From Vreelandella olivaria (lineage in GTDB: Bacteria; Pseudomonadota; Gammaproteobacteria; Pseudomonadales; Halomonadaceae), in NCBI RefSeq assembly GCF_023507745.1, contig NZ_JALPZO010000172.1, positions 62,001 through 126,000 on the forward strand: a stretch of DNA of 64,000 nucleotides. Reading direction: 5' to 3'. The notes below the pieces were generated by a model that saw nothing but the letters and a program-made list of their open reading frames with translations, searched no databases and was not told where the DNA came from. Shown here piece by piece: positions 1-61,350 of the stretch (positions within the stretch are counted from its first letter, which is position 1; each line of letters opens with the position of its first letter). The position numbers were made by a program, and so were the translations under genes.

Positions 1-1170
1 AAAGAAGGATTTGCCGTCACCCCGGTTATCCACCAGATGTGGGAAGAGGCTTACCACCATTACTCGGTCTATCCCGATGCAGCCTTTAAACCCTGGTACG
101 ACACCTTTGCCCCAAAAGGCCGAGCGCCCCGACCGGGAGAGGTGTGGTCTTCTCCCGGCCACGCTAAAAGCCTGGCGGCCATAGCAGCTACCAACGCGGA
201 TGCTTTTTACCAAGGCGAACTGGCCGATGCAATGGATGCATTTTCCCGAGAGCATGGCGGTTTGCTACGCAAAGCAGACCTTATGGCCTACCAGCCAGAA
301 TGGGTAGACCCTATTAGCGTGCGCTACAAAGGTCATGATATCTGGGAGATTCCGCCTAACGGAAGCGGCATGATTGTTCTCCAGGCGCTGGGTATGCTGG
401 AACGGCTGGAGGAGTGTGGGGGAGATCCCGTGGAAACGCTGCACCGCCGCATTGAAGCCACCAAGCTGGCCTATGTTGACGGCTTTAAGCATATTACCGA
501 ACGGGCAGCAATGGCCCCCACAACGGAGCAGATGCTTAGCGATGCGTACTTAAAAACGCGAGCCGCGCTGATTGGTGAACAAGCGGTAGACCCGATTCAT
601 GGTAATCCACTGCAAGGGGGAACAGTTTATCTTGCTACCGCAGACAACGACGGCAACATGGTGTCGCTGATTCAAAGTAACTTCAAAGGGTTCGGCTCAG
701 GCATGGTAGTACCGGAAACCGGTATCAGTCTGCAAAATCGCGGCTGGTCGTTCTCACTTGACCCGCAGCATACCAATGCTCTGGCCCCTGGCAAGCGCAC
801 CTATCACACGATCATTCCCGGCTTTATTACCAAAGATGACCAGGCGGTTGGGCCATTTGGGGTAATGGGCGGCTATATGCAACCCCAAGGGCACGTACAG
901 GTCGTTACCGCCATGCTGGAAGATCATTTGAACCCCCAGGCAGCCCTCGATATGCCACGCTGGAAGTGGACAAAAGGGAAAACGATCGAAGTAGAGGCAA
1001 ACTTCCCCAATCACCTTGCCCTGGCGCTGGCACGCCGTGGACATCATATCGTAAAAGTGGCCGATTCGATTAGTTTTGGCCGAGGCCAGATTATCTTACG
1101 ACACCCTGATACAGGCGTATTGGAGGGTGGCACCGAACCACGTACCGATGGAGCAGTGTTGCCGATCTAG
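1..1170 (+). CDS. Gamma-glutamyltransferase family protein, 3' part
   Basis: The frame is open from the first base, so the N-terminus lies outside the window; 389 codons are visible. The product belongs to the Ntn-hydrolase gamma-glutamyltransferase family, which cleaves or transfers gamma-glutamyl groups and is autoprocessed ahead of a catalytic threonine. The likely nucleophile is the Thr encoded at 622-624 in a GGTVYLATAD context, which would give a small subunit of about 180 residues. Downstream motifs fit the family: a glycine-rich GFGSGMV stretch, LQNRGWSF, and APGKRTYHTIIPG. Residues after GGPM... lead into the usual QAALDMPRW segment. An intrinsic terminator follows. Family confident; substrate (glutathione or another gamma-glutamyl compound) not determined. 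Confidence 0.9.
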   Translation, partial: KEGFAVTPVIHQMWEEAYHHYSVYPDAAFKPWYDTFAPKGRAPRPGEVWSSPGHAKSLAAIAATNADAFYQGELADAMDAFSREHGGLLRKADLMAYQPEWVDPISVRYKGHDIWEIPPNGSGMIVLQALGMLERLEECGGDPVETLHRRIEATKLAYVDGFKHITERAAMAPTTEQMLSDAYLKTRAALIGEQAVDPIHGNPLQGGTVYLATADNDGNMVSLIQSNFKGFGSGMVVPETGISLQNRGWSFSLDPQHTNALAPGKRTYHTIIPGFITKDDQAVGPFGVMGGYMQPQGHVQVVTAMLEDHLNPQAALDMPRWKWTKGKTIEVEANFPNHLALALARRGHHIVKVADSISFGRGQIILRHPDTGVLEGGTEPRTDGAVLPI

Positions 1171-8088: not shown

Positions 8089-8217
8089 GGCACCCTAAAG
8101 GTGCCGTACTCATCAGTTTTTTGCTGCCGTTAGCGTTGTTGGTCGCAATTAGTGATTATCATGTTTGTTGGCAAAAATAAGCTGCTATGAGCCGTTATTA
8201 CTTGTTGCCTTTAACAA

Positions 8218-8484: not shown

Positions 8485-8512
8485 TAACACACACTACACA
8501 AACTTATGATGT

Positions 8513-8568: not shown

Positions 8569-8613
8569 CTGACACCCCTTCTTCTGGAGGCTGCGTGTCA
8601 GGGGCGTTTTTTA
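8563..8613 (+). terminator. Leader terminator (attenuator) ahead of the nir operon
   Basis: A 13-bp perfect stem, ACGCCCCTGACAC (8563-8575) with GTGTCAGGGGCGT (8595-8607), is followed by TTTTTATT. It lies between the promoter and the first start codon, so it must be bypassed for expression. Confidence 0.85.
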
Positions 8614-8649
8614 TTGCCTGACACCCATGCAGAACAGAAGGAGCCACCC

Positions 8650-9951: not shown

Positions 9952-9953
9952 CT

Positions 9954-18693: not shown

Positions 18694-18721
18694 TCGACAT
18701 CAACACGGCGAGATTTAAGCC

Positions 18722-19174: not shown

Positions 19175-19189
19175 AGAGGAGGTAACCTT

Positions 19190-20701
19190 ATGTTTGAATC
19201 TTTATTTCATGCACTCCCAGTTGCGCTAAGCACTGAGTCTGTCATTAGCATGCTCATTGGCACACTGGCGGGAATACTCATTGGCGCCCTACCCGGCCTG
19301 AATCCGGTGATGGCAATTGCATTGATGCTACCTTTAACCTATGGGCTTGATCCGCTGATTGCGCTGGGTTTGGTGGCAGGTATCTATAATGGCTCTATGT
19401 ATGGAGGAGCAATTCCCGCCATTTTACTAAAAATACCCGGCACACCTTCTGCAATAGCAACCACTTTTGATGGCTACCCCATGACACAAAATGGCCAGGG
19501 TGGCTTAGCGCTGAAAACCGCATGCTGGTCGTCCGCTATTGGTGGCGTATTCAGCGCCCTGGCATTGATGACACTGGCGCCGCTGCTGGCCAAAGTCACG
19601 CTAGCCTTCGGCCCGGCTGAATATTTTTGGGTCGCGACCTTCGGGCTCATCAGTATTGCTGTACTGGTTGGCAAGGATGTAAGCAAAGGCATGCTATGTG
19701 CATTACTAGGCGTACTAATAGGCCTGGTAGGCGTTGACTCATTAACGGGTGAAGAACGCTATACGTTTGGCAGCCTGTATTTAACAGGTGGTTTCGAGCT
19801 GCTTATTGTTCTTATTGGCCTCTATGCCATTCCCCCTATTATTGAAATGGCCGAGAACAAAAGCAGCTCACACTTCAATGCCGAGAGCTTTAAGGTCAAC
19901 GCGAGTGTTACCGGCGTGAGCTTAGTGCGCCAGCACTGGAAAACATGGACCCGATCATCGTTGATAGGTATCAGCGTTGGAATATTGCCTGGCGCGGGCG
20001 GTAACCTGGCGGGACTATTAAGTTATAATGAAGCCAAGCGCAGATCTCCAGAGCCCGATAGTTTTGGCACTGGCAACCCTGTAGGTATTGCAGCTGCAGA
20101 GTCTGGAAATAGTGCGGATAACGCATCATCCATGATTCCTTCCCTTACATTAGGCATCCCAGGGAACCTGATTGCGGCGCTGGTACTTGGCGCACTGATG
20201 ATCCATGGTCTCCAACCGGGCCCTCAGCTTTTCACCCGGGCTCCCGATGTCGTGTTCGGCTTTATGTGGCAGATGCTGCTAACATCGCTGGTACTGCTAC
20301 TACTGGGAGGGATGGTTGCCACACGCCTGTTTGCCCAGGTATTAAGACTGCCTGCTGCCTTATTAGTCCCAACTACGCTCGTACTTATGGCAATAGGTGT
20401 TTACACCGTTAATGGAAGAGTAACGGACCTGTACGTAATGTTAGCGTTTGGCTTGCTCGGCTATGTATTAAATCGCCTTGACTACCCACTCGCTCCTGTC
20501 GTACTTGGCATCTTGCTTGGCCCCATGGCTGAGCAAAACCTGCGCCTCTCCATGCTGATATCCCAAAACGACTGGACAATACTCTTTACTCGCCCTATTT
20601 CTCAAGGAATAATTTTACTACTGCTATTTGTTCTTTTTTCAAAATTATGGAAAGGTGGCTGGAGTAGGTTGATAGCTTACTTAAAAATTAAAAACCAATA
20701 A
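19190..20701 (+). CDS. tctA: Tripartite tricarboxylate transporter, large permease subunit
   Basis: 503-aa TctA-family permease with about 11-12 membrane segments. The signatures IGALPGLNPVMAIALMLPL and GILPGAGGNLAGLLSYNEAKR are the two family repeats. The start is preceded by GAGGAGGT. It completes a TctCBA system. Co-localised amidohydrolase and UTRA regulator suggest uptake of a di- or tricarboxylate or lactone. Confidence 0.95.
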   Translation: MFESLFHALPVALSTESVISMLIGTLAGILIGALPGLNPVMAIALMLPLTYGLDPLIALGLVAGIYNGSMYGGAIPAILLKIPGTPSAIATTFDGYPMTQNGQGGLALKTACWSSAIGGVFSALALMTLAPLLAKVTLAFGPAEYFWVATFGLISIAVLVGKDVSKGMLCALLGVLIGLVGVDSLTGEERYTFGSLYLTGGFELLIVLIGLYAIPPIIEMAENKSSSHFNAESFKVNASVTGVSLVRQHWKTWTRSSLIGISVGILPGAGGNLAGLLSYNEAKRRSPEPDSFGTGNPVGIAAAESGNSADNASSMIPSLTLGIPGNLIAALVLGALMIHGLQPGPQLFTRAPDVVFGFMWQMLLTSLVLLLLGGMVATRLFAQVLRLPAALLVPTTLVLMAIGVYTVNGRVTDLYVMLAFGLLGYVLNRLDYPLAPVVLGILLGPMAEQNLRLSMLISQNDWTILFTRPISQGIILLLLFVLFSKLWKGGWSRLIAYLKIKNQ

Positions 20702-48426: not shown

Positions 48427-49158
48427 ATGACTCAGTTAATGAATCGAGACGATTTCCGCACTGCACTAGAGGAAGCCATCAAAGGCAAAAGTGCCAATAA
48501 AGCCCCTTTCAGCATCGCCTGGGCAAGTGGCAAGCTATCCAGAGAGCATCTTTCCCGCTGGGCGGAAAATCATTATCACTATGTAGGCCCCTTTGCCGAT
48601 TATCTGGCCTATATTTACGCCAATACGCCCGAAACCTATACGGAAGCCAAGGATTTTCTACTTCAGAACATGTACGAGGAAGAGCTTGGCGGTGATCGCC
48701 ATACTGACTTGCTGATCCGCTTTGCTGAGGCGTGCGGTACTACGCGTGAGCGCGTCGAAAACCCTGACAATATGTCGCCAACTACGCGGGGGCTGCAGAG
48801 CTGGTGCTATGCCATAGCCATGCGCGAACATCCCGTTGTTGCGGTCGCGGCACTCGTTGTTGGCCTGGAATCACAAGTGCCTTCCATTTATCGCAGACAA
48901 ACCCCAACCCTTCGCGAGAAGTACGGCTTCACTGACGAGGAAGTCGAATTCTTTGATCTGCACATTGTTTCCGACGAGATCCATGGTGAGCGCGGCTATC
49001 AGATCGTGCTCGAACATGCTGACACTGTCGAGCTGCAACAGCGTTGCTTGCGCATATGTGAAATTGGCGCCCAGATGCGTTTGCTCTATACCACCGCGCT
49101 TTACTATGACTACGTTGCAAGCGATCTCCCCATCACCGAGCTGGATATGGCTGCCTGA
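48427..49158 (+). CDS. Heme-oxygenase-like diiron protein (PqqC/TenA/CADD-like)
   Basis: 243-aa all-helical protein of the heme-oxygenase-like diiron oxidase (HDO) group. All six metal ligands seen in CADD-type proteins are present at matching spacing: E85 and H92 (EELGGDRH), E148 (GLESQVP), and H179, D183, H186 (HIVSDEIH). Such proteins activate O2 for C-C cleavage, N-oxygenation or desaturation of small amines and acids. First gene of the island's plus operon; AGGAG precedes ATG. A ferredoxin and its reductase encoded downstream could supply electrons. Substrate unknown. Confidence 0.8.
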   Translation: MTQLMNRDDFRTALEEAIKGKSANKAPFSIAWASGKLSREHLSRWAENHYHYVGPFADYLAYIYANTPETYTEAKDFLLQNMYEEELGGDRHTDLLIRFAEACGTTRERVENPDNMSPTTRGLQSWCYAIAMREHPVVAVAALVVGLESQVPSIYRRQTPTLREKYGFTDEEVEFFDLHIVSDEIHGERGYQIVLEHADTVELQQRCLRICEIGAQMRLLYTTALYYDYVASDLPITELDMAA

Positions 49159-49238
49159 ACTCCAGACACCCATGAACCATCATGCCTGCCCCTCCTGCAG
49201 AGGAGCGGCAGGTTGACGAGTACCAGTGACCTGATGAG

Positions 49239-50702
49239 GTGAGCACTTTGAATCCTACCCCGTTGTTTCTCAATTACATTGATGGCCAATGGGCTGCCAG
49301 CACCACAGGCCAGACCTTTGAAAATCGCAACCCAGCCGAACACGATGAACTGCTGGGCAACTTTCAGGCCTCCTCCGCCGATGATGCCCGCCTCGCGATT
49401 GAAGCGGCTGACAGTGCATTTTCAGGCTGGCGGGCAACGCCTATTTCCAAGCGAGCCAAAGTGCTCAACGGCGCTGCAGATTACCTGGAAGAAAACATTG
49501 AGGCCTTTGCCGAAGAGCTGACGCGAGAAGAGGGCAAGCTGTTAAGCAATAGCCGCGACGAAATTGCACGCTCAGCCCAAACGCTGCGCTTTTACGCTGT
49601 TGAAGGCCTGACGATTACTGGCGAAACCTTTCCCCAGGATGATGCAAAAATGACGGTATACACCCAGCGTGAGCCGCTGGGCGTTGCGTCCATCATTACC
49701 CCGTGGAATTTTCCAATCTCGATACCTGCCCGAAAAATTGCCCCTGCTTTAATTACCGGCAACACCGTTGTCTTTAAGCCCTCATCAGACGCCCCTTTAA
49801 TTGCTTACCGTCTTGCCGAAGCACTTCACCACGCTGGCGTACCAAAAGGCGTTTTCAATTTCATCACGGGCAGCGCATCCGCTCTGGGGCAAGAACTCAC
49901 TACCCATACTGCCATCAAGGCCATCTCCTTTACCGGATCGACCCAGGCAGGCGAAGCCATTCAGCAAGCAGCCGCCATGAGCACACGCACACAGATGGAA
50001 CTAGGGGGCAAAAATCCTCTTATCGTGCTCGCCGATGCCAATCTCGACCAGGCTGTCGACCTGACGATCAAAGGTGGCTTTTCCCTAACTGGCCAAGCAT
50101 GCACAGGGACCAGCCGCGTGCTAATCGAAAAATCGGTCAAAACGGATTATCTGGAACGCCTGGTTGCCAAGGTCAAGGAATTGAAGATTGGCAACGGGCT
50201 GGCGCAAAGCACTCAGATCGGCCCTCTTGCCACCCGACAACAGCTTGATACGGTATTGCGTTATATCGACATTGGCAAACGCGAAGCCGCGCATATCCAT
50301 GGCGGAGAACACCTTACAGGTGAAGGGTATGACAACGGATACTTTGTTTCTCCAGCCATTTTCAGCGATGTGACCCAGCAGATGCGCATTGCTCGCGAAG
50401 AGATATTTGGGCCGGTCGTAGCCATTATCGAGGTTGATGGGTATGAAGACGCCATCGCCAAGGCCAATGACTCTATGTATGGCCTATCCGCGGCCCTTGC
50501 GACTCAGAACCTCGAGTATATACAACGCTTTCCAAGCGAGATTCAGTCCGGAACCGTCAAGATTAATCGCACAACGACGGGCAACCTGGTGAACGCCCCG
50601 TTCGGAGGCCTCAAGCAATCAAGCACATCGACTTTCCGAGAATCTGGACGCGCCGGTCTCGACTTTTTCACCCAAACCAAAACCATATATCTAGGTTACT
50701 GA
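49239..50702 (+). CDS. NAD(P)-dependent aldehyde dehydrogenase
   Basis: 487-aa ALDH resembling succinate-semialdehyde/lactaldehyde-type enzymes. Motifs: ITPWNFPISIPARKIAPAL, FTGSTQAGEAI, catalytic Glu in MELGGKNPLIV and catalytic Cys in GQACTGTSRVL. Start codon uncertain: GTG at 49239 or TTG at 49248, the latter placed better behind GAGGTGA. Likely oxidises an aldehyde made by the island's pathway. Second gene, 80 bp after the diiron protein. Confidence 0.9.
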   Translation: MSTLNPTPLFLNYIDGQWAASTTGQTFENRNPAEHDELLGNFQASSADDARLAIEAADSAFSGWRATPISKRAKVLNGAADYLEENIEAFAEELTREEGKLLSNSRDEIARSAQTLRFYAVEGLTITGETFPQDDAKMTVYTQREPLGVASIITPWNFPISIPARKIAPALITGNTVVFKPSSDAPLIAYRLAEALHHAGVPKGVFNFITGSASALGQELTTHTAIKAISFTGSTQAGEAIQQAAAMSTRTQMELGGKNPLIVLADANLDQAVDLTIKGGFSLTGQACTGTSRVLIEKSVKTDYLERLVAKVKELKIGNGLAQSTQIGPLATRQQLDTVLRYIDIGKREAAHIHGGEHLTGEGYDNGYFVSPAIFSDVTQQMRIAREEIFGPVVAIIEVDGYEDAIAKANDSMYGLSAALATQNLEYIQRFPSEIQSGTVKINRTTTGNLVNAPFGGLKQSSTSTFRESGRAGLDFFTQTKTIYLGY

Positions 50703-50736
50703 CCCCCTCCCCCTGACGATAATTTCAAGGTGAATC

Positions 50737-51216
50737 ATGAAAACGTTTTTCCGACTGGAACTCGAAGAAGCTAAATTAATGGTCGAAGCGGCCAAAAAGC
50801 GCTCTGAAGAAATCAATGTGCTGGAGAGCATCTGCATTGTCGATGAAGGTGGCTATCCCCTCGCCTTGGAACGCATGGACGGCGCACGGGTTACCGGCCC
50901 TCAGATCGCCTGGAACAAAGCATTTACGGCTGCGGGCCACAAGCGCTCTACCCACCTATTCAACACCCCCCCCAATGGCCCGGCTCTACCAGGTAACGAA
51001 GCTTTCGGTATCCAATGGAGTTTTGAAGGAAAATTTGCCGTTTTCGTTGGCGGCTTCCCCATCGTGGTTGATGGCGAAGTGGTAGGTGGCGTTGGCTTGA
51101 GTGGCGGTAATGGAGAACAAGACACTCAAGCAGGTCTGGCTGCTTTACAAGCCCTGCAGGATCACTTGCGCAACAGTGGTCACGAAGTCGTCGTTCAGGC
51201 GGACATTAAAAAGTAA
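50737..51216 (+). CDS. GlcG/HbpS-family protein
   Basis: 159-aa protein of the GlcG/HbpS (heme-binding-like) fold: SICIVDEGGYPLALERMDGA, NKAFTAAGHKRST and the glycine-rich GGFPIVVDGEVVGGVGLSGG. Family members sit beside oxidative catabolic genes and some bind heme or cobalamin-like ligands, but no reaction is established. No signal peptide, so cytoplasmic here. AAGGTG precedes ATG; 34 bp after the aldehyde dehydrogenase. Confidence 0.85.
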   Translation: MKTFFRLELEEAKLMVEAAKKRSEEINVLESICIVDEGGYPLALERMDGARVTGPQIAWNKAFTAAGHKRSTHLFNTPPNGPALPGNEAFGIQWSFEGKFAVFVGGFPIVVDGEVVGGVGLSGGNGEQDTQAGLAALQALQDHLRNSGHEVVVQADIKK

Positions 51217-51325
51217 GCGGGACCAAGCGAAGGCGCTGGCCTTCGCTTTCGTTGATCCAACGAGAAGCCAACTTCGACATATAAGCATTCGGCACTTCTG
51301 ATATTGAGGTGCCAAGGAGGCCGTC

Positions 51326-52342
51326 ATGACCTATTCCATAACGCTTTCAGAAACCTCCGATACGTTTGATGTTCAGCCCAACGAGCCGATACTGATTGCT
51401 GCTGAGCGTGCCGGCCTACAGCTAATGCATGACTGCCGCTTCGGCGGCTGTGGTGCCTGCCGCATTAAACTGCTGAGTGGCCAGGTAAGCTACGAAGAAC
51501 CTCCTTTCGGACTAACCGAAGAAGAGCGCGGGCAGGGATATGCACTGGCCTGCCAGGCGATGCCACAAAGTGATCTTACTATCAGTGCACAGTTACGCCC
51601 TGAAGGTTTTATTCCTGCCGATTATCACGTCGCGACCATCGCTCAAATCGAAAAGCTCAGCCATGATGTCATTCATTTGATATTGCGTATTCCTACCGCT
51701 GCCGAGGTAAGTTTTCACCCTGGCCAGTACCTCAATATCATGCTGGATGATGGCTCACCTCGTAGCTTCTCGATGGCCTCACCACCGAAGGGTGATCTCT
51801 TCAACTTGCACATTCGTCGTGTGCCAGGAGGGTTCTTTACCAGCCGACTGGAGAGTCATTACCACATCGGAGACACACTGGATGTAGAGCTTCCCCTGGG
51901 TAATTTTCGCTATGACGCACAAAGTTCCCGCGACCTCCTGATGATTGCAGGCGGTACAGGGCTCGCTCCAATCAAAAGTATTATTGAGTCATTGCGAAGT
52001 ACTCCGCCTACGCCCCGCATCATGCTGTACTGGGGGGTCCGTCGCGCCGAGGACCTATACCTGGATGAGTTGCTGTGCCAGTGGGCTCGTGAACTCACTA
52101 ATTTCCACTACATTCCCGTGCTCTCAGAGGCTGATGGACAGTGGCAAGGTGCACGCGGTTTTGTCCATGAAGCTGTATGCCGCAATCACGACGACCTAAG
52201 CCAATTCGATGCCTACCTTTGTGGACCGCCCCCGATGATCGCTGCCGCCAAGCGGGAATTACCCCTACGCGGCATCAACGTCGAACGTATTTTCGCCGAC
52301 AGTTTCAACTTCACTCACGAACTTGATGGCAGCGTGGCCTAA
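51326..52342 (+). CDS. [2Fe-2S] ferredoxin-NAD(P)H reductase component
   Basis: 338-aa electron-transfer protein of the oxygenase-reductase family. N-terminal plant-type ferredoxin domain with C37, C42, C45 and C76; FAD domain with PRSFSMAS; NAD domain with IAGGTGLAPIKSII and CGPPPMI. AAGGAGG lies five bases before ATG. Passes electrons from NAD(P)H to an oxygenase or to the separate ferredoxin encoded 23 bp downstream. No Rieske oxygenase alpha subunit is encoded, so the diiron protein is the best candidate acceptor. Confidence 0.92.
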   Translation: MTYSITLSETSDTFDVQPNEPILIAAERAGLQLMHDCRFGGCGACRIKLLSGQVSYEEPPFGLTEEERGQGYALACQAMPQSDLTISAQLRPEGFIPADYHVATIAQIEKLSHDVIHLILRIPTAAEVSFHPGQYLNIMLDDGSPRSFSMASPPKGDLFNLHIRRVPGGFFTSRLESHYHIGDTLDVELPLGNFRYDAQSSRDLLMIAGGTGLAPIKSIIESLRSTPPTPRIMLYWGVRRAEDLYLDELLCQWARELTNFHYIPVLSEADGQWQGARGFVHEAVCRNHDDLSQFDAYLCGPPPMIAAAKRELPLRGINVERIFADSFNFTHELDGSVA

Positions 52343-52365
52343 GCCACTGCCTAAGGTGTATCGCT

Positions 52366-52656
52366 ATGCTGGATATCACTTTCATCACCAATAATAACAA
52401 GACCGTTAGCGCCCCGGAGGACTCCAACCTGCTGCGTGTCTCACTCCGCGAGCAGGGAGGCATCCCTTTTAAATGCGGCGGAGGCTTATGCGGCACCTGC
52501 AAGTGTCGCGTTGAAGAGGGCCGTGAACATACCGATAGCATTAAGAAGAAAGAGCAAAAGTTACTCAGCGAGGATGAGTTAGCACAGGGATATCGACTCG
52601 CCTGCCAAACATTCCTCAAGGGGAATGTTAAAGTCTCCTGGGAGACACGCGCATGA
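52366..52656 (+). CDS. Plant-type [2Fe-2S] ferredoxin
   Basis: 96-aa ferredoxin with cluster ligands C37, C42, C45 and C80 (FKCGGGLCGTCKC ... GYRLAC). AAGGTG precedes ATG. Its last codons overlap the aspartate dehydrogenase start (ATGA), so both are translationally coupled. It has an extra Cys at 47. A relative is encoded at 61051. Confidence 0.92.
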   Translation: MLDITFITNNNKTVSAPEDSNLLRVSLREQGGIPFKCGGGLCGTCKCRVEEGREHTDSIKKKEQKLLSEDELAQGYRLACQTFLKGNVKVSWETRA

Positions 52657-53477
52657 ACAAAACGGCAAAGCGCCAGATCCGGGCAGGGCTGATTGGCTAC
52701 GGTACCGCAGGCCGTGATGTGGCCAAGGGAATTCTGGCAGGAAATGCTGGCGACTGCCAGCTTACAGCGGTACTGGTGCGTAATAGCCACCGCTATTCGG
52801 GCACTGAGCTACCTGCGGGTACATTAACCGACAGTATCGATGCATTTTTCAATGCGGGCCTGGATGTTGTTATCGAAACAGCCGGACATGATGCCGTACG
52901 GCATTACACCAGTCACGCTTTGTCGAAAGGCTGCGATGTCATGGTTGTGTCGGTCGGCGCTTTTAGTGACCAGGCCCTACTCAATGACACTCTTGAAATA
53001 GCCCGACAGCAAGGCAAACGGGTGATCATTCCCTCAGCGGCCATTGCAGGCCTTGACCGTCTATCCGCAGCCACCCTGGGCCACGTGGACAGCATCACAC
53101 TAACGACACGCAAGCCTGTTAAGGCTTGGCGAGGTACCTTTGCGGAAGAAATCCTCAATCTGGATACGATTAGCGAGCCAACGCTGGTATTCGAGGGTAA
53201 TGCTCGTGAATCGTCACGCCTCTTCCCCGAAAGCGTCAACGTTTCAGCCGCGCTCAGCCTTGCAGGAATCGGTTTCGAATCCACCACCGTGCGCGTTCTG
53301 GTCGACCCAACCATTGAGAAGAACATTCATGAGGTTTCTGCTCAAGGGGTATCCGGAGAAGTGCGTATTGAAGTGCAAAATACCCCTTCGCCCGGCAACC
53401 CCAAAACAGGGTATATCGTCGCAATGAGCATTCTCAGCTCTCTGCGCCAATTAACCTCTCCGATGATATTCAGCTAA
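52653..53477 (+). CDS. Aspartate dehydrogenase
   Basis: 274-aa NAD(P)-dependent amino-acid dehydrogenase of the NadX/AspDH family. Rossmann motif GLIGYGTAGRDVAKGI; SVGAFSD; IPSAAIAGLDRLSAA; FPESVNVSAALSLAG; and NTPSPGNPKTGYIVAMS at the end are family blocks. It interconverts aspartate (or a related amino acid) and the imino/keto acid plus ammonia. It may release or capture nitrogen from the pathway substrate. No nadA/nadC is nearby, so NAD synthesis is an unlikely role. Last gene of the operon. Confidence 0.9.
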   Translation: MNKTAKRQIRAGLIGYGTAGRDVAKGILAGNAGDCQLTAVLVRNSHRYSGTELPAGTLTDSIDAFFNAGLDVVIETAGHDAVRHYTSHALSKGCDVMVVSVGAFSDQALLNDTLEIARQQGKRVIIPSAAIAGLDRLSAATLGHVDSITLTTRKPVKAWRGTFAEEILNLDTISEPTLVFEGNARESSRLFPESVNVSAALSLAGIGFESTTVRVLVDPTIEKNIHEVSAQGVSGEVRIEVQNTPSPGNPKTGYIVAMSILSSLRQLTSPMIFS

Positions 53478-53544
53478 CCTTCCCTTAGCTCTACTATCGG
53501 CATATACATCACAGCGGGTATAAACAAAGAAGCAACATGGTACG

Positions 53545-53585
53545 AAAAGCGCCCTCTCTTTAAAAAAGAGAGGGCGCTTTTTAAC
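53545..53585. terminator. Strong bidirectional terminator
   Basis: A 16-bp perfect stem, AAAAGCGCCCTCTCTT (53545-53560) with AAGAGAGGGCGCTTTT (53566-53581), loop TAAAA. It separates the convergent operons of the island. Confidence 0.9.
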
Positions 53586-53637
53586 TACGTTATAACTATT
53601 TTCAAAAGCTATCAGCAGAAAGTCATCTGCACAATAA

Positions 53638-54744
53638 CTACACTACAAATGGGGTCACGAAGAAGGCAATCAGGAAAGCGGTTATAACGCGCATGAGAAT
53701 TCCAAGCACGGCGGCCCCCATCGCTTCACGCTCGGTTAAGTCCGAACTTTCCGACCAGACAACGGGCACTTGCCCAAAGATAGCGGATAACGGCAGACCT
53801 GATGAAGCCAACACAAAAGAGCCAACCACCAGCGACGGATCTATTTCACTAGCAATGGACTGCAACTGCCCCATCGCCAGTGTTGGGCTTACCAGAACCG
53901 ATAATACGCCGGTTTCAGGATGAATATTAAGATGGAGCATGACCCATCCCAAGCCCGACTCAACCGGCGCCCAAACGCCTATGTAATCCAGCACACCAAT
54001 CACCGCAAAAACGAGCGCCACCGCTGGAATTAAAATCAGCAATAACAACTCCACCCCCTCCCGAGCAGCCCTAAACAGGGTCGGGATAAATTCCCGGTCT
54101 GGGGTAAAGGCTGGCAACTGACCAATATCCACATGGCGTACATCGCGATAGACCAACTTCGAGAGTAAAAAAGGGCCAATTAGCAAAGGCAGGAACACAG
54201 CCAACAGCACCACAATGAAGACGTTAACTCCTGCAAAAGCCAACGCCATCAACCCAAGCATGAAAGTAGAGAAGGATTGCTGGGACTGTACCATCGTGGC
54301 GACAGCCAGTTTCTGCTCGTCTTTTGTTGCACCTGCCCGTTTGAGGATCGGCCCGGAGATTTTTCCTGCTGCGTTAATATCGCCAAAGATATTATAAATA
54401 CTAGGAATAATAACCGCCGGGTTAACCTTAAATAGCTTCATTGCAGGCACAAAGATACGCATTAGCGCATCAGTGAACCCCAATCGCTCCAACAGCCGAC
54501 CAATAATAACACTGACGATAATGGCGGTACCCACCACCCCTGTCAGGAAGACATCCACCACGACTGGGCGTACCGAGTCGATAATAGCATTAAAAAGACC
54601 AGCCAAACTGGTAGGGGAAAACAGCAAAAATAAAAGGCAGATACCAAGTAGTACTAGCCCCACTATCTCAATACGTCTCCAAGCACGCTTGGCAATAGAC
54701 AGTGTTTTTTCCCCGGCTTGGGGGTCGGAAAGTGATGTTTTCAT
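53638..54744 (-). CDS. Nucleoside-recognition (Gate) domain membrane protein
   Basis: 368-aa protein with about nine hydrophobic segments and two Gate-like repeats, similar in layout to YjiH and SpmA/SpmB-type proteins. Typical segments: FLTGVVGTAIIVSVIIGRLL, NIFGDINAAGKISGPILKRA and QSQQSFSTFMLGLMALAF. ATG at 54744 has CAGGAG six bases upstream. Probably a transporter; substrate unknown, plausibly the island's compound. 31 bp after the NIF3-family gene. Confidence 0.7.
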   Translation of the reverse strand: MKTSLSDPQAGEKTLSIAKRAWRRIEIVGLVLLGICLLFLLFSPTSLAGLFNAIIDSVRPVVVDVFLTGVVGTAIIVSVIIGRLLERLGFTDALMRIFVPAMKLFKVNPAVIIPSIYNIFGDINAAGKISGPILKRAGATKDEQKLAVATMVQSQQSFSTFMLGLMALAFAGVNVFIVVLLAVFLPLLIGPFLLSKLVYRDVRHVDIGQLPAFTPDREFIPTLFRAAREGVELLLLILIPAVALVFAVIGVLDYIGVWAPVESGLGWVMLHLNIHPETGVLSVLVSPTLAMGQLQSIASEIDPSLVVGSFVLASSGLPLSAIFGQVPVVWSESSDLTEREAMGAAVLGILMRVITAFLIAFFVTPFVV

Positions 54745-54775
54745 GAGTAACTCCTGGAAGAGGGTTGAGTATGCT

Positions 54776-55798
54776 TTAAACATCGCTCAGTGCATGTTTG
54801 CCCAACAGGTGACTAGCAGCCATTTCCTGTGCATATATCTGCATTGTTGGGGAACCGACCTGTCTTACGGGCGTAGAAGTGACTCGGTCCCGAAACAGCA
54901 CAACCTCAACACCTTCGAGCAACTCATCAAGGGCATGTGCCAATGGCAACCCGTTTTCCAGTATCTCCATGACATGGCAATTGCCAACCATGAAATTGAG
55001 ACCCAACTCTCTAGCCGTTTCAACCAGCGGGTGACCCTCATAAACTCGACTGATTGATGCCAACACAGTATCAACATATGGGTTTTCTGCGATGGCTCGC
55101 CGCATATCATCTGAAGAGAAGCCGGTATGCGGGAAAAAATGTAATATCTGTTCCACTTGGCTCTCACGTGTACCAAGATGAATAAAGCCATGCGTTTCGA
55201 CACTGGTTTCACAGATAGAGAAAATACCTCTTAACTGTCGCTCAGCATCCAGTAGCGCTCGATCCTGGTCCAGCGCCATGAAGCTATCAAGGCGATCCAG
55301 AATATCTCCCAATGTTTCGATACCAGGCAATGTGTTGCCGATATACATAATATTGCCATGTACACCACCATAAGAGATGCTACCTTTTTGTATCTTATGG
55401 CCATGCAAATACGGAATTCCAGGATGCAGGCCATGAAATGCCTCATGGCACTCCAAACCAGCGATGTCATAAAGATCCAGATAGTTTTTCAGGGTGACGC
55501 CACCACAACTGGCAGCATCCGCGATAGGATGATGCGCAACAATAGCGTCCACTTGCGTGGCCCCCGCCAGTTCAATGACCACTTCAGTCATCGTCATACA
55601 GACAGCTAGTTTCTTTACCTCCCTGCCCGGATTGCCATAAATCAATCCAGGTATTTCCAATACCTCCTTACCGTAAATACCCGATGACTTCATGATCACA
55701 AAGGGGTGATCCCCACGTTTTACCTCATCCATGGATGAGACAGTTCTACCACCAGTAATGGCGCTTAGTGCGTTGACGATGTCAGAGACGGTTGTCAT
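54776..55798 (-). CDS. NIF3/YbgI-family protein
   Basis: 340-aa protein of the NIF3 family: metal-binding VDAIVAHHPI and a C-terminal ECHEAFHG-type/GNCHVME His-rich portions. Longer than the usual ~250-aa bacterial NIF3. Function of the family is unsettled (dinuclear-metal hydrolase-like; GTP cyclohydrolase I type 2 is a common but doubtful name). Start ambiguous: ATG at 55798 has AGAGGAAG upstream, but an in-frame ATG at 55873, behind GGGGGGAG, would translate through a terminator-like hairpin. Confidence 0.75.
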   Translation of the reverse strand: MTTVSDIVNALSAITGGRTVSSMDEVKRGDHPFVIMKSSGIYGKEVLEIPGLIYGNPGREVKKLAVCMTMTEVVIELAGATQVDAIVAHHPIADAASCGGVTLKNYLDLYDIAGLECHEAFHGLHPGIPYLHGHKIQKGSISYGGVHGNIMYIGNTLPGIETLGDILDRLDSFMALDQDRALLDAERQLRGIFSICETSVETHGFIHLGTRESQVEQILHFFPHTGFSSDDMRRAIAENPYVDTVLASISRVYEGHPLVETARELGLNFMVGNCHVMEILENGLPLAHALDELLEGVEVVLFRDRVTSTPVRQVGSPTMQIYAQEMAASHLLGKHALSDV

Positions 55799-55817
55799 TG
55801 GTTTCTTCCTCTGGGAC

Positions 55818-55870
55818 AAAAAAAACCGCCAGCACAACCCTAGGCGAAAGCCCAAGGCTGCACTGACGGT
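55818..55870 (-). promoter_or_regulatory. Attenuator-like hairpin before the NIF3-family gene
   Basis: On the minus strand ACCGTCAGTGCAG ... TGTGCTGGCGGT forms a long imperfect stem followed by eight T, ending only about 20 bp before the 55798 start codon. No room remains for a promoter, so transcription must read through. A short in-frame leader ORF (MTVSAALGFRLGL...) starts at 55873 behind a strong ribosome site and spans the hairpin. Confidence 0.6.
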
Positions 55871-55975
55871 CATTGAGCACTCCCCCCTTTCAGGGTGAGT
55901 TCATATCACCAGTCAACGTGCTCCAAAGATTTGCGTATTATGCTCCATCTCAATAACGAGATATTTCTCGCTAAG

Positions 55976-56329
55976 CTAGAGGTAATCACGCACATCCTTT
56001 TTCATTATTATCAGCGTGGCGGAAAGCTCAGCATCCGGATCGTAATCCTTTAGAATGGACACCACCTCGAAAGCATACTTCTCAACCAGCCGCTGCTTAA
56101 ACTCCTGCTTAAACCCCTTGATTAGATAGTGATCTGCCAATTCACTAACGTTGCTATTCAATTGACTTAAATAACCCAGGGAGGGGACCCGACGGTGCAC
56201 AGCCATAATGAGAATCCGCTCCCCCTGAATATCCACTTTCTGCCGCACGACACCAATCCCAAAGATACGGTAGTTAGTATCATTGTACTCTTTGATGATG
56301 TCCTGCTTTAGATCGCCCAGCGTTGTCAT
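55976..56329 (-). CDS. DUF2294-like small protein
   Basis: 117 aa, no signal peptide. The C-terminal half (KGFKQEFKQRLVEKYAFEVV, then ILKDYDPDAELSATLIIM) resembles the DUF2294 pattern in which an Arg/Lys-rich helix is followed by a G/A-x-EVV strand and a D-D element. Function unknown. It has its own GntR operator copy upstream (56485-56494), so it belongs to the regulon. Confidence 0.55.
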   Translation of the reverse strand: MTTLGDLKQDIIKEYNDTNYRIFGIGVVRQKVDIQGERILIMAVHRRVPSLGYLSQLNSNVSELADHYLIKGFKQEFKQRLVEKYAFEVVSILKDYDPDAELSATLIIMKKDVRDYL

Positions 56330-56484
56330 GACGGAATCGTCTCGTAAGAAGTTAAACCGTACGATCCCTGCACCAACCTATCCATTTTCGTAACCGCCAT
56401 TGCAATCACAATTATTACAATGACAAGTTCTTTTCCCGTCACTAAGTTTCGTGAGCACCCAGGCAGCTAGAATTTTTAGGCATC

Positions 56485-56494
56485 TGGTATACCA
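56485..56494. promoter_or_regulatory. GntR operator 2
   Basis: TGGTATACCA, perfect 10-bp palindrome, between the end of gntR and the DUF2294-like gene, about 155 bp upstream of the latter's start. Confidence 0.7.
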
Positions 56495-56551
56495 CAGTAT
56501 TTATCGACAAACTAGCCAACCTATTACCGGGTGTCAAGTATGCCAATTAAA

Positions 56552-57214
56552 TTACACCTGCGAACGACTCATATAAGCCTTGCGTGACTTTTCAAGGTGT
56601 ATCTGAGTAAAGCTAACCGCCAAGTCCTCTTCACCATTGCGGATAGCGCCGAGGATATCGCGGTGCTCCCGTAGCGCCTCTTTTGTACGCCCAGGCAAAC
56701 CACTACTCAGATTGGAAAAGGCACGCACATAATCCTTTAAATCGACCAGCATCTCATGCAACTTAGGGTTTCCTGCCGCCCGTCCGATGAGATCATTGTA
56801 TTTGACGTTCAGCTCAACGGCATCCTCAACATCACCATTAAGCTGAGCAGTTTCCATCTCAACCATCAACTGATCTATTTCAGCTACAATATCGCCATTG
56901 ATTTTCTGGGCAGCCAACCTGGCTGCCAACGATTCAAGCGAAGAAAGGATCATGAAAACCTCCAGTATCTCGGACTGGGGAATTTCATTAACCACCACTC
57001 CTTTACGCGGAACCGTTCGTACAAAACGCTGGGTTTCCAAGCGAAAAAGCGCTTCGCGGATAGGTGTGCGACTAATATTAAGTTTCTCAGCAAGCACCCG
57101 CTCTATCAAACGATCTCCTGGCTTGTACTCACCACGCAAAATCGCATCTTTCAAATAGGTATAGACCTTATCACGAATCGGGGACAAGTCCTGTTGGCTC
57201 CAGAGTCCAGGCAT
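56552..57214 (-). CDS. GntR-family regulator, FadR/FCD type
   Basis: 220-aa regulator. N-terminal winged helix: KVYTYLKDAILRGEYKPGDR, LAEKLNISRTPIREALFRLE, and VPRKGVVVNEI. C-terminal all-helical FCD domain with D/H metal-site pattern (ELNVKYNDLIGRAAGN; REHRDILGAIRNGE). FadR-type GntR proteins bind short TGGT-N-ACCA palindromes, exactly the element repeated across this island, so this is very probably the local regulator. Its own promoter has a variant site. Confidence 0.93.
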   Translation of the reverse strand: MPGLWSQQDLSPIRDKVYTYLKDAILRGEYKPGDRLIERVLAEKLNISRTPIREALFRLETQRFVRTVPRKGVVVNEIPQSEILEVFMILSSLESLAARLAAQKINGDIVAEIDQLMVEMETAQLNGDVEDAVELNVKYNDLIGRAAGNPKLHEMLVDLKDYVRAFSNLSSGLPGRTKEALREHRDILGAIRNGEEDLAVSFTQIHLEKSRKAYMSRSQV

Positions 57215-57274
57215 GGGAAGCTTCCTTGGCGATGACCATAGGCGGGATAAATTTGGTTATCATCATACCATGCT

Positions 57275-57309
57275 GACTACATTTGGTGCACCAGGAACCA
57301 AATGTAGTC
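57275..57309. promoter_or_regulatory. gntR promoter dyad with operator variant
   Basis: Arms GACTACATTTGGT (57275-57287) and ACCAAATGTAGTC (57297-57309) are a perfect 13-bp inverted repeat. TGGTGCACCA (57284-57293), an operator variant, lies across the left arm. It sits about 60-95 bp upstream of gntR, consistent with autoregulation. Confidence 0.6.
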
Positions 57310-57351
57310 AAAGAAACCAGCCTGCACATTCTTCAGAGCATCCAACTGCTG

Positions 57352-57657
57352 TCAGGCACACTTCTCCAGACGCGTATCAATCGTCCCAAACGTAACGAGT
57401 TGATTCAGTTCCTTACGAGCTTCTTCAAGCGTATCAAAGCGCTCGAAGAATTTAAGCCTCACACGATTGGTAGTACCTTTGTCCCCCACCTCAACGATAC
57501 TCACCCGCTCTTCCAGCGCGTTCTCTTCTACCTTAGCAATGGTGAAATACGCCTTCTTACGTTCATAGAAGTAATATTCATACGACTCGACTGGCCGTAT
57601 CCCCTGGTCAGGTAACGCATCATACTCATCGAATTTACTGGTCATAATTATATACAT
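57352..57657 (-). CDS. Hypothetical protein, 101 aa
   Basis: Acidic soluble protein starting MYIIMTSKFDEYDALPDQGI. AGAGGAGAG lies before ATG, so it is likely expressed. Mixed strands and helices (AYFTIAKVEENALEERVSIV; FDTLEEARKELNQLVTFGTI). I do not recognise a family. It lies between the creatininase gene (76 bp upstream) and gntR, all on the minus strand. Confidence 0.65.
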   Translation of the reverse strand: MYIIMTSKFDEYDALPDQGIRPVESYEYYFYERKKAYFTIAKVEENALEERVSIVEVGDKGTTNRVRLKFFERFDTLEEARKELNQLVTFGTIDTRLEKCA

Positions 57658-57733
57658 TGCCAACTCTCCTCTATGGTTAGGTACCCTCTACGTTTTACGC
57701 CACACACATTTATCCCTTGACAATAAAAACTTA

Positions 57734-58504
57734 CTATTCCGCTGCACCAAGCAAATCATTCACAGACTTAACCAATCCATCTAACGCCTCTTCCACGATA
57801 GCTTCCCCAATCGAGAAACTGGCTTGGGTGGCATCACCTATGCAGCCATTACGAGTCATCTCTTCATAGCGATAAAACCCCTGAACGGGGTTGCCCGGAC
57901 GCAGGCCTTGCCAGCGACCACCCTCGACGATATCCCCCTTCACCAGCTTATCCCGTCGAACGAGCGTTGGGGCCAGATACAAAGCTTCCGAGACTTCTCG
58001 CTCACAACTATGTCCATAAAGTGTCGAGTGAATGTAAGCCTGCATGGACTTCTTTGCCGCTGCTGTGGTTTTTGCGTAGTAGCACTCCACTTCCAATTCC
58101 TGGTAAAGAGTGGCACACGCGAGTCCCAGTGTGGACTGGTTGCCGCCATGGCCATTAAGAAACAAAACCTTCTCAATGCCGTGATGCTTTAACGACGTCA
58201 CCATATCGTACAATACCGCCATCAACGTTTCCGGCCGAAGGCTGATGGTGCCGGGAAAGTTCAGGTGATGCGGTGAAACCCCCATATTGACGGTCGGCGT
58301 CACCAACACTCGGGGATAAAGCCGCCCCGCAAGCCGTTTCGCCATCTCCGTTGCCAGAACAGCGTCACAACTCTCATTCATGTGAGGGCCATGCTGCTCG
58401 TGTGCCCCCACTGGGACAATGGCCATTTTGACTGTTTCGAGCGCCTGCTGAACCTCAGGCCAGGTCATTTCGGTTAGCAGATAGCAAGGGGCTACCCTGG
58501 TCAT
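57734..58504 (-). CDS. Creatininase-family amidohydrolase
   Basis: 256-aa member of the creatininase family (creatininase, FAPy/formamide deformylase, MftE). Metal ligands are visible in PVGAHEQHGPHMNESCDAV (Glu, His, Asp), FLNGHGGNQST (His) and CEREVSEA (Glu). These enzymes cleave cyclic or linear amide bonds, so it is the natural candidate for opening the island's substrate. GAGGAG lies eight bases before ATG. An operator copy is 116 bp upstream. Confidence 0.88.
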   Translation of the reverse strand: MTRVAPCYLLTEMTWPEVQQALETVKMAIVPVGAHEQHGPHMNESCDAVLATEMAKRLAGRLYPRVLVTPTVNMGVSPHHLNFPGTISLRPETLMAVLYDMVTSLKHHGIEKVLFLNGHGGNQSTLGLACATLYQELEVECYYAKTTAAAKKSMQAYIHSTLYGHSCEREVSEALYLAPTLVRRDKLVKGDIVEGGRWQGLRPGNPVQGFYRYEEMTRNGCIGDATQASFSIGEAIVEEALDGLVKSVNDLLGAAE

Positions 58505-58619
58505 CGAACACACTCCTCATAACAGTAAGCACCAAGGTCATGTAAGCCCTTTTCCGGCTAGCCCTTTGAGGGCAGCAACCAAGCTTATCAACCACATAGT
58601 CGATCAACCAAAATGGCTT

Positions 58620-58631
58620 TTGGTATACCAA
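58620..58631. promoter_or_regulatory. GntR operator 3
   Basis: TTGGTATACCAA, perfect 12-bp palindrome upstream of the creatininase gene. Confidence 0.75.
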
Positions 58632-58768
58632 CAATCCAACACTAGCTCACATCTACTGATTATGTAAAGCTCTGAATGTGGGCATGCACGACGCCACTCA
58701 AACCCTGTCTACACCCACAAGTTATCAAAACGAGGCAGTTGCGCCTCATCCATTTCGATTTATGGAAT

Positions 58769-58779
58769 TTGGTATACCT
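58769..58779. promoter_or_regulatory. GntR operator 4 (imperfect)
   Basis: TTGGTATACCT matches the element except for the last base, in the same intergenic region. Confidence 0.5.
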
Positions 58780-59006
58780 ATATTGACGAATCCTCTCGGC
58801 TGGGCATATCCTAGTCAAACAATCGATTTTAAATAATAAAAACGACTATCCGCCGCTCATATAACACACTGATATATCAGTGTTCTTACTGATGAAAATG
58901 ATTAAGAGCGGGTGTTAAATCGCAATGAACCATGAAGCCTACCCCTACAGCTTCACCTCTGTTGAGATGTTCAAAGAGGGAAAAAATAGAGTAAAAACAT
59001 CGTCTT

Positions 59007-59016
59007 TGGTACACCA
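59007..59016. promoter_or_regulatory. GntR operator 5 (variant)
   Basis: TGGTACACCA within CTTTGGTACACCACAAAG, about 360 bp ahead of the permease gene. One base differs from the core. Confidence 0.5.
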
Positions 59017-59376
59017 CAAAGTCACCAATCACGTATGTTCCTCCCGTGGCGATGCCATTTGCTCGTATCCATATCGCCCGCGCGCAACCGCAATGCCGCC
59101 ACGCCTGTCTCGCTTATTACCTGCCCGATTAAACACCTGTCAGCCAATTCAAGCTTCCTGCCACTGTAGCAGCCTACGCAAGCGACATCCTCGTGACCGG
59201 CAGGCCTCCACTCACGCTCAGCGATGCTCAAGGGGGTTGGTCATGCAACGACGATGACAATAAAGACAGATAAATGTGTTCCTGGGGGATATCACATGCA
59301 CTGCCCTTCCAAACACGCTCCAGCACCAATAAACCACTTCTGACAATCAAGACCTCATGACTAGACAAGGTGCACC

Positions 59377-60849
59377 ATGGATCAAATAGAACTGGTACAA
59401 CTCACTGCATCGCACTGGATATTCCTACTTGTCATCCTGGCAATATTCATCTCAATCGGCTTTAGGAAAGGCGTTATTATTCCATCCATTCTGGGCATTC
59501 TCATTCTGGGCCTCCTGGCGGATGCTCCTCAAGAAGGCCTGCTGAACCAAACCATTTTTGCGATTCAGGTCGTTTTTAGGGCACTGCTAAATGCCGGCAA
59601 TGAACTCTTTGACATCATGCTGGTTATCGCCCTCATGGTGGCCATGCTGAAATCATTACAAAGCATGGGTGCGGACCGAATGATGATTGCTCCTATGAAA
59701 AAGCTAATGATTAGCCCATGGAGCGCCTTCTTCGTACTTGGCATTACAATGTACATCGCTGCCGCTTTTTTCTGGCCGACGCCTGCCGTTGCCCTGGTGG
59801 GGACCGTACTCATTCCTGTCGCCATGCAGGTCGGTCTGCCTGCTATTGGTGCCGCAATGGCTGTCAATCTGTTCGGACATGGCATGGCACTGTCTGCTGA
59901 CCCAATCATTCAAGGTGCCAGCCGTCTAACGGCGGGTGCAGCTGGTATCGAAACCACCGAGCTGATCCCATATACCCTTCTATTCTCATTTACCGTCGGC
60001 ATCATCGCAGTCACCATTGGCTTCCTAAAGCTCAAACGTGATATGAGTTGCGGCCGTATTCAAGCCTCCACTGGCGACCAGGTGTTTGTTCCCAAATCTG
60101 CTGGTGCTGCCGCCACCCATCCGGCCACCCTCTCAGAAGAGCCTACACCTAACCCTTACGCAAAGTTGTTTGCTATCGCTGTCCCTACCATACTGCTCGG
60201 TATCGCAGGACTGATGATTTACCGTGCCCTGCTTCTACCAGACCAGGCGATTCGTGGCGGAAACGCCACCGCCCTGTTGGGTGGTACGGCTACCGTATTG
60301 CTGGTTCTGTCTTCTTTCGCCTCGCAGGGCCACAAAGCACTCGATGGGATCAGCCACTTCACACGAGAAGGCTTCTTCTTTGCGATCAAAATATTTGCTC
60401 CCATTATCCCCATTGCTGGTTTTTTTCTGCTGGGTCATCCAGCACATTCTGAAGTCGTCATCGGTAGTACTGCACCAGGCTACCTGTTCGACATTGGTCA
60501 TAACATAGGCTATTTCATTGAAGGTAATGTCTTCCTTCTGGCCTTCGGCATGGCATTTATCGGCTTACTGACCGGTATGGATGGATCCGGCTTTTCTGGC
60601 TTACCTTTGGTAGGCTCACTCTCTGGAGCACTGGGTACCGGCGCAGGCGTCAATATTGCCGTGCTGGCAGCACTTGGCCAGGTAACCGCCATTTTCGCTG
60701 GTGGTGGAACACTCGCCGCCTGGGCTTTTGGAGTTGCCGCAGACGCGGGAATCGCAGGCGTCAGCCCCGCCGAACTGGTACGCCGTAACGTGGTGCCCGT
60801 CCTAACCGGCGTAGTCGCAGCGACCTGCCTAGCCATCCTATTGATGTAG
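59377..60849 (+). CDS. Large permease, probable carboxylate or ion transporter
   Basis: 490-aa integral membrane protein with about 12 hydrophobic segments. Two halves end in hairpin-like glycine-rich stretches (AAFFWPTPAVALVGTVLIPV; GMDGSGFSGLPLVGSLSGAL), as in GntP/CitM/DctM-like ion-transporter superfamily members. I could not assign a named family. AAGGTG lies four bases before ATG. Its place behind the operators suggests it imports the island's substrate. Confidence 0.75.
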   Translation: MDQIELVQLTASHWIFLLVILAIFISIGFRKGVIIPSILGILILGLLADAPQEGLLNQTIFAIQVVFRALLNAGNELFDIMLVIALMVAMLKSLQSMGADRMMIAPMKKLMISPWSAFFVLGITMYIAAAFFWPTPAVALVGTVLIPVAMQVGLPAIGAAMAVNLFGHGMALSADPIIQGASRLTAGAAGIETTELIPYTLLFSFTVGIIAVTIGFLKLKRDMSCGRIQASTGDQVFVPKSAGAAATHPATLSEEPTPNPYAKLFAIAVPTILLGIAGLMIYRALLLPDQAIRGGNATALLGGTATVLLVLSSFASQGHKALDGISHFTREGFFFAIKIFAPIIPIAGFFLLGHPAHSEVVIGSTAPGYLFDIGHNIGYFIEGNVFLLAFGMAFIGLLTGMDGSGFSGLPLVGSLSGALGTGAGVNIAVLAALGQVTAIFAGGGTLAAWAFGVAADAGIAGVSPAELVRRNVVPVLTGVVAATCLAILLM

Positions 60850-60997
60850 AGCCATATGCGGGAGTCCAGGCCGTCGCTGCCTGGCCAGTCACATGCTCCT
60901 TGTGGGTCGCTGTCCATCCGTTTCTGTTCCAAGGAGCGGCCCAAGCTCGCAGCATCACTTTAATAGCGACAAGTTGACACAATCACACTAATGGCTC

Positions 60998-61011
60998 ATG
61001 GTATACCATGG
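60998..61011. promoter_or_regulatory. GntR operator 6
   Basis: CATGGTATACCATG is a perfect 14-bp palindrome, flanked by ATGGCTC and GAGCCAT so that the dyad extends to about 28 bp with one extra base. It lies 40 bp before the ferredoxin start. Confidence 0.75.
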
Positions 61012-61050
61012 AGCCATTAACTTTTATCTTATAACTTTCAGGTGACTTCA

Positions 61051-61350
61051 ATGCCACTGATTACGATCCATAAAAATGGTGAAACACACCAGGGAGAGAT
61101 ACAGCCAGAGACCAACTTGGTAGTGCGTGCAGGAATACGACAATTTCCTTACCCACACCTAAGCTATGGTTGCGGAATGGGCAAATGTTCCAAATGCATG
61201 TGTCTGATTATTAAAGGAGGAGAAACATTACCAGCGCCTAATTGGAAAGAGAAAAAAATGCTGGGGACAAAACTAGAGCAAGGCTATCGGCTGGCCTGCC
61301 AACTATGGGTCAAAGAGGATCTTGAGCTATCGCAAAACATATCATCCTAA
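61051..61350 (+). CDS. Second plant-type [2Fe-2S] ferredoxin
   Basis: 99-aa ferredoxin with ligands C41, C46, C49 and C83 (YGCGMGKCSKC ... GYRLAC). Only about one third of its residues match the ferredoxin at 52366, so it is not a recent copy. AGGTG precedes ATG; GTG at 61042 is an alternative. Monocistronic under its own operator. It may serve the same oxygenase or a different acceptor. Confidence 0.9.
   Translation: MPLITIHKNGETHQGEIQPETNLVVRAGIRQFPYPHLSYGCGMGKCSKCMCLIIKGGETLPAPNWKEKKMLGTKLEQGYRLACQLWVKEDLELSQNISS

Follow-up and report, generated by a model that had tools for sequence, protein, structure and literature searches.

We analysed a gene island at positions 48427-61350 of a 64,000-nt stretch of Vreelandella olivaria DNA (NZ_JALPZO010000172.1, positions 62,001-126,000; hereafter the window), in which genes were identified by open reading frame (ORF) listing and by Pfam/NCBIfam profile scans. 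At its left end lies a gene for an HDO-family dimetal oxygenase (HDO), followed by genes for an aldehyde dehydrogenase (ALDH), a GlcG/HbpS-like protein (GlcG), a ferredoxin-FAD/NAD reductase fusion (FNR), a [2Fe-2S] ferredoxin (Fd1) and an aspartate dehydrogenase (AspDH). No gap between these six plus-strand genes (48427-53477) exceeds 109 bases, and judging from this layout they can be one operon. The remainder of the island encodes a GntR/FCD regulator (GntR), a creatininase-family hydrolase, a putative transporter (TRANS), a second ferredoxin (Fd2) and several small or peripheral proteins (Table 1). All of the genes that an earlier note on this DNA had named were present; its list omitted a small recurrent gene, hypK, and contained a NIF3-family protein that, like the Gate-domain protein and hypI beside it, is not part of the conserved core described below.

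We compared this gene set across 83 loci, comprising the best 80 of 506 HDO relatives in a species-level genome collection and three of six plasmid hits. Genes of the loci were predicted by a script based on codon scores and sorted into groups with BLAST, a procedure that may miss some; loci cut by contig ends stay in all counts. At E 1e-20 a search of 96 host relatives, 60 of which share its genus, did not find the HDO, and a class-wide sample of 369 genomes returned only the host and two weak matches (30-32% identity). Searches with an HDO profile (A3) gave matches in 5 of 398 genomes sampled from the phylum, in 2 of 347 from one order and in 8 of 349 from a second, counts that include the host and centre genomes; orders and classes of the sampled genomes were inferred from their loci. 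Nevertheless, six plasmid or chromid records of Caballeronia and Cupriavidus encode the HDO at 86-89% identity, and it is 84-96% identical in the best 80 of the 506 relatives, which come from other genera and classes (among them Billgrantia, Bisbaumannia, Halomonas, Saccharospirillum, Marinobacter, Cupriavidus, Achromobacter, Paraburkholderia, Candidimonas, Bradyrhizobium, Bauldia and Devosia). Such patchy spread at high identity suggests horizontal transfer; the module appears to be mobile and to have passed between distantly related bacteria.

The gene set behaves as a real unit, as had been supposed: each core gene (HDO, Fd2, hypK, Fd1, GlcG, ALDH, GntR and the transporter) occurs in 63 to 83 of the 83 loci, with FNR as a usual companion, and HDO, GlcG, ALDH, Fd1, hypK, GntR and TRANS occur all together in 74. 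Where present, Fd2, hypK and Fd1 lie at median gaps of 81, 636 and 982 bases from HDO. Because gene order varies between lineages while content is kept, we favour a shared function over simple inheritance as a block. The expected co-occurrence of HDO, AspDH, creatininase and GntR held for the regulator (82/83), but AspDH was found in 17 loci and the creatininase in 16, with other families elsewhere. The cluster of hypI, NIF3-like and Gate genes adjoins the module in the window (53638-56329) and in a Marinobacter locus (L086, 17527-20310); within the locus stretches examined, L086 was the only place outside the window where these three genes were seen.

Table 1. Genes of the island and one gene at the window edge. 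Fractions give the number of the 83 compared loci in which the gene or its family was found.
Feature	Coordinates	Strand	Evidence and remarks
HDO-family dimetal oxygenase, 243 amino acids (aa), core	48427..49158	+	PF14518 5.3e-39; 83/83
ALDH, 2,5-dioxovalerate/KGSA (alpha-ketoglutarate semialdehyde)-dehydrogenase-like, core	49239..50702	+	PF00171; 81/83
GlcG/HbpS-like protein, core	50737..51216	+	PF03928; 80/83
FNR, ferredoxin-FAD/NAD reductase fusion	51326..52342	+	Fer2 + FAD_binding_6 + NAD_binding_1; 69/83
Fd1, [2Fe-2S] ferredoxin, core	52366..52656	+	PF00111; 81/83
AspDH, L-aspartate dehydrogenase by score, replaceable slot	52653..53477	+	TIGR03855 above cut-off; 17/83
Gate-domain membrane protein, peripheral	53638..54783	-	PF07670
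NIF3-like protein, peripheral	54776..55873	-	PF01784
hypI, 117 aa, peripheral	55976..56329	-	no Pfam family
GntR/FCD regulator	56552..57214	-	PF07729 + PF00392; same similarity cluster in 82/83
hypK, ~100 aa	57352..57663	-	TTG start listed, second M two codons in; 81/83
Creatininase-family hydrolase, replaceable slot	57734..58513	-	PF02633 1.3e-66; 16/83
TRANS, membrane protein, putative transporter, core	59377..60849	+	family in 75/83
Fd2, [2Fe-2S] ferredoxin, core	61042..61350	+	PF00111; 63/83 by gene call, 67/83 by tblastn
gamma-GT-like hydrolase gene (gGT), 3' part, cut by window edge	37..1170	+	end of GntR2-ChrA-ChrA-TctCBA-like-gGT block

The AlphaFold2 (AF2) model of the HDO (pLDDT 83.7) aligned with PqqC (1otw, Z 23.6), CADD (1rcw, Z 23.2), UndA (4wwj, Z 20.4) and BesC (7twa, Z 18.8); on this model the protein has the heme-oxygenase-like helical fold by which the HDO superfamily is defined. 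The expected 3 His/3 carboxylate metal ligands (E85, H92, E148, H179, D183 and H186) are invariant in all 90 sequences of an alignment that takes in the window protein and the 45%-identical HDO of locus L091. The description of the protein as HDO-type is thus borne out by predicted fold and ligand residues. Its closest PDB sequences are p-aminobenzoate (pABA) synthases and PqqC, and it shares the fold and all six ligands with CADD, to which it is 25% identical when structurally aligned (1rcw). However, the Tyr27 that CADD sacrifices and the Lys152 that serves it as amine donor, according to PMC11965152, correspond here to Ser29 (90/90 sequences) and Gln158 (89/90; Thr once), and ferredoxins, FNR and hypK lie nearby in a catabolic-looking setting. 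Scores against the curated models were 101.6 bits for CADD (cut-off 200) and 53.9 bits for PqqC (TIGR02111, cut-off 240). By sequence, the window protein is an HDO but neither CADD nor PqqC.

The distribution of hypK follows that of HDO closely. In 349 genomes, treated as one sample for the HDO (E 1e-40) and hypK (E 1e-4) profile searches, hypK was found in seven, all within the eight HDO-positive genomes and within 5 kb of HDO; that is, in 7 of 8 HDO-positive versus 0 of 341 other genomes (Fisher's exact test, 7e-14). This sample overlaps the 83 loci (the contigs of L105, L106 and L108 equal in length those of L072, L048 and L026), and the eighth HDO-positive genome carries the 77%-identical HDO of locus L110. 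When 34 members (the window protein and 33 of 78 gene calls outside L004-L006; alignment A2) were searched against Pfam, nothing exceeded any cut-off. Among PDB sequences hypK found only two matches (E 0.031 and 1.7), which we took as chance. The confident AF2 model of hypK (pLDDT 92.7) consists mostly of strands, with one helix; in fold searches no Foldseek match reached E 0.001 and no VIA-align match exceeded Z 3.9, a result that does not imply a new fold. Because of the company the gene keeps, hypK is probably a dedicated partner of HDO, acting as a coupling or docking component.

A 2026 review counts about a dozen validated HDOs, with biosynthetic roles, and calls for the rest to be deorphanised; in its main text the word ferredoxin does not occur, and a single redox partner, MboB, is named (PMC13108848). 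BesC, UndA and the other HDOs share the fold and the ligand set with the window protein, and small acid or amino-acid substrates are plausible here too, but the roles that the review describes are biosynthetic whereas the setting here is probably catabolic. As the earlier note had argued, profile scans of the unit found no oxygenase besides HDO, and the ferredoxins and FNR travel along with it. The open-licence PubMed Central (PMC) literature yielded no description of this gene set and no orthologous cluster already assigned to a known substrate. We regard the protein as a member of the HDO superfamily whose setting is new, being multicomponent and probably catabolic. Soluble methane monooxygenase-type systems combine a diiron oxygenase, whose hydroxylase is ferritin-like, with a reductase and a small extra protein. 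The module may be analogous in pairing a diiron oxygenase with a reductase and a small extra protein, but no ferritin-like hydroxylase gene was among those scanned, and hypK matched no Pfam or PDB sequence. A further possible analogue is the methanesulfonate monooxygenase MsmABCD, which has its own ferredoxin and reductase and stands beside TauE/SafE and sulfite dehydrogenase genes (PMC4433239); that enzyme, however, is a Rieske hydroxylase with alpha/beta subunits and no HDO, and a sulfonate substrate would be purely hypothetical here.

The reading that we favour, with moderate confidence, is that the island forms a catabolic module that moves horizontally and is centred on a reductively fed, multicomponent HDO, probably one dedicated to the aldehyde-forming catabolism of a small compound. 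NAD(P)H would supply electrons, which FNR and the two [2Fe-2S] ferredoxins would relay to the HDO dimetal site, with hypK as the dedicated coupling or docking partner of HDO. A small substrate, imported by TRANS or freed by a lineage-specific hydrolase, would be oxidatively cleaved or hydroxylated by HDO to give an aldehyde that ALDH then oxidises; AspDH or an OCD-family enzyme, where present, would handle the resulting amino or imino acid, and GlcG would act beside HDO. An aldehyde product is suggested because ALDH is near-constant, and the presence of the GntR/FCD regulator and the transporter in nearly all loci favours a catabolic module. ALDH itself fell short of two NCBIfam models, the best-scoring NF052305 (564.9 bits, cut-off 750) and NF042993 (563 bits, cut-off 770), and was rejected as a 2-oxoglutarate semialdehyde dehydrogenase equivalog. 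TRANS, which had no Pfam family over cut-off and no PDB relative, is taken as a putative transporter of an unnamed family.

Several points weigh against this reading. The 83 loci cover only 80 of the 506 HDO relatives; FNR was not found in 14 of the 83 stretches, Bradyrhizobium among them; L072 lacks ALDH and FNR, and L110 lacks hypK, ALDH and FNR. The distant HDO of L091 retains only GlcG and GntR beside it, so ferredoxins and hypK do not accompany every HDO relative, and the fold search for hypK says nothing on its role. Across the 83 loci the HDO comes with a ready-made electron chain, with an accessory protein outside the described families and with catabolic partners that are almost always present, and both the electron supply of HDOs and their use in catabolism become questions directly testable in laboratory strains.

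Individual loci vary in other ways. In L091 (9429-12150), which looks like a simpler relative of the module, the HDO gene is divergent from one for a 272-aa protein that appears Rieske-type by eye. A partial AspDH-like gene in L110 lies near genes for a thiamine pyrophosphate enzyme, an aldolase-type protein and an FAD monooxygenase. Two HDO copies share one cluster in Cupriavidus basilensis KF708 (L044, 5900-10732), and genome G1106 (L096, L097) has two HDO matches 8 kb apart, also in one cluster.

Within the frame of the module, amino-acid cleavage, desulfonation and a lactam route are alternative chemistries. The first, a credible if tentative candidate, would be oxidative cleavage of a C-N or C-C bond in an amino acid or N-substituted amino acid, by BesC-like fragmentation or N-dealkylation, to give an aldehyde, ammonia and an amino or imino acid such as aspartate or iminosuccinate. 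Characterised HDOs mostly use amino and fatty acids, and BesC yields formaldehyde and ammonia (PMC13108848); ALDH accompanies HDO in 81 of 83 loci, and amide hydrolases recur. The window AspDH scores 216.2 bits against the curated equivalog cut-off of 206.55 for TIGR03855 and has aspartate dehydrogenases as its PDB relatives; by score it is an L-aspartate dehydrogenase (NadX) equivalog. AspDH (17 loci) and an OCD-family enzyme (29) never occur together, one or the other being present in 46 of 83 loci, and because AspDH passes its cut-off and is exchanged for an OCD-family enzyme, amino- or imino-acid chemistry is suggested. The Cupriavidus OCD-family protein has among its PDB relatives mu-crystallin, thiomorpholine-carboxylate dehydrogenase, alanine dehydrogenase, iminosuccinate reductase 6rqa and other imine reductases. 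The slot may resemble BhcD of the beta-hydroxyaspartate cycle in its NAD(P)-linked chemistry, but the OCD protein of L004 scored 113.5, far under the BhcD cut-off of 500. Neither AspDH nor OCD was found in 37 of the 83 stretches; therefore, the amino/imino-acid step is not universal. Locus L085, which lacks both, carries a gene resembling saccharopine dehydrogenase. The route put forward in the earlier note, in which the creatininase-type enzyme would open the ring of an imported lactam or cyclic amide before HDO oxidises the product, seems unlikely to us. Its link to hydrolases stood in part: creatininase genes, close to hypK, are found in 16 loci, amidases in 20, gamma-GT-like hydrolases in 13 and alpha/beta hydrolases in 3, so that at least one is present in 44 of 83, and a metagenome-assembled genome (L072, 7705-9033) encodes a natural Fd1-alpha/beta hydrolase fusion (Fer2 + Abhydrolase_3). 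However, none of the four families was found in 39 of the 83 stretches, including every one of the 24 Achromobacter and 7 Bradyrhizobium loci, which does not support hydrolysis as a common first step or a shared starting substrate of the amide or lactam type; four unrelated families also fit removal of a side chain or N-acyl group as well as ring opening. An M20-like hydrolase, recognised by eye in 13 loci (12 of them Achromobacter), was left out of these counts. The window hydrolase belongs to PF02633 and was rejected as a creatininase (EC 3.5.2.10) equivalog (TIGR04448, 102.6 versus a cut-off of 235). Outside the module frame, a CADD- or PqqC-like biosynthetic or cofactor enzyme that merely sits in a catabolic neighbourhood would fit the nearest PDB sequences, but the replaced CADD residues, the low CADD and PqqC scores and the near-constant company of ALDH, transporter and GntR make it highly improbable.

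Oxygenolytic desulfonation, which we rate as rather unlikely, would have HDO hydroxylate a sulfonate-bearing carbon to release sulfite and an aldehyde; from homocysteate, for example, ALDH would convert aspartate semialdehyde to aspartate and AspDH would convert that to oxaloacetate. This idea comes from the neighbouring exporters. TauE/SafE genes are present in 43 loci (alpha and beta) and ChrA genes in 15 (gamma), never together, and the two behave as alternatives, each presumably exporting a sulfur oxyanion. Of the 24 Achromobacter loci, 14 have SorA/SorB genes ~1 kb from HDO (a scan of a single pair, that of L065, gave scores above both NCBIfam equivalog cut-offs), and Xsc, Pta and another TauE lie ~9 kb from HDO in 10 Cupriavidus loci (one Pta was scanned, and one Xsc, which is partial, cut by the locus end, and scored 415 bits versus a cut-off of 676). 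In seven gamma genomes, 24 of 34 ChrA matches fall within 13 kb of HDO (24 of 38 in eight genomes including the host), and the known msm cluster likewise has TauE/SafE and SoxCD (PMC4433239). TauE/SafE is nevertheless a broad family: each of 14 genomes had 4-17 matches. A tree without characterised TauE was built from 14 of the 43 HDO-linked proteins, 3 xsc-linked proteins and 20 of 22 PF01925 matches in two genomes. In it the HDO-linked proteins group by themselves (100/100), away from the xsc-linked proteins and the other paralogues tested, with long branches flagged; therefore their cargo may differ, and the TauE genes are weakened as direct evidence of sulfite export. SorAB and Xsc-Pta each turned up here in a single genus, neither exporter was found in 25 of the 83 loci (all 7 Bradyrhizobium included), and the host ChrA pair on this contig is 52 kb upstream of HDO. 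More doubtful again is the wider proposal of a class of HDO-based, C-S cleaving multicomponent oxygenases, distinct from Rieske, flavin and 2-oxoglutarate enzymes, coupled by hypK and mobile in gamma-, beta- and alpha-proteobacteria. For homarine catabolism, another candidate considered, nothing relevant was found in the open-licence PMC literature.

The host has four ChrA matches; the distant pair, on the same contig as HDO, belongs to a GntR2-ChrA-ChrA-TctC/B/A-like-gGT block (L095, 8378-15170) that reaches into the start of the window. A ChrA-ChrA-gGT run stands directly upstream of HDO in Billgrantia/Halomonas loci (for example L008, L018 and L020), and the host block is possibly a second part of the system. 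Elsewhere in the window, genes at positions 17731-20701 look like another tripartite tricarboxylate transporter set (tblastn pointed to TctC, translations to the remainder), and genes at 5266-12461 read, from their translations alone, as nitrate/nitrite assimilation (molybdopterin nitrate reductase and nitrite reductase).

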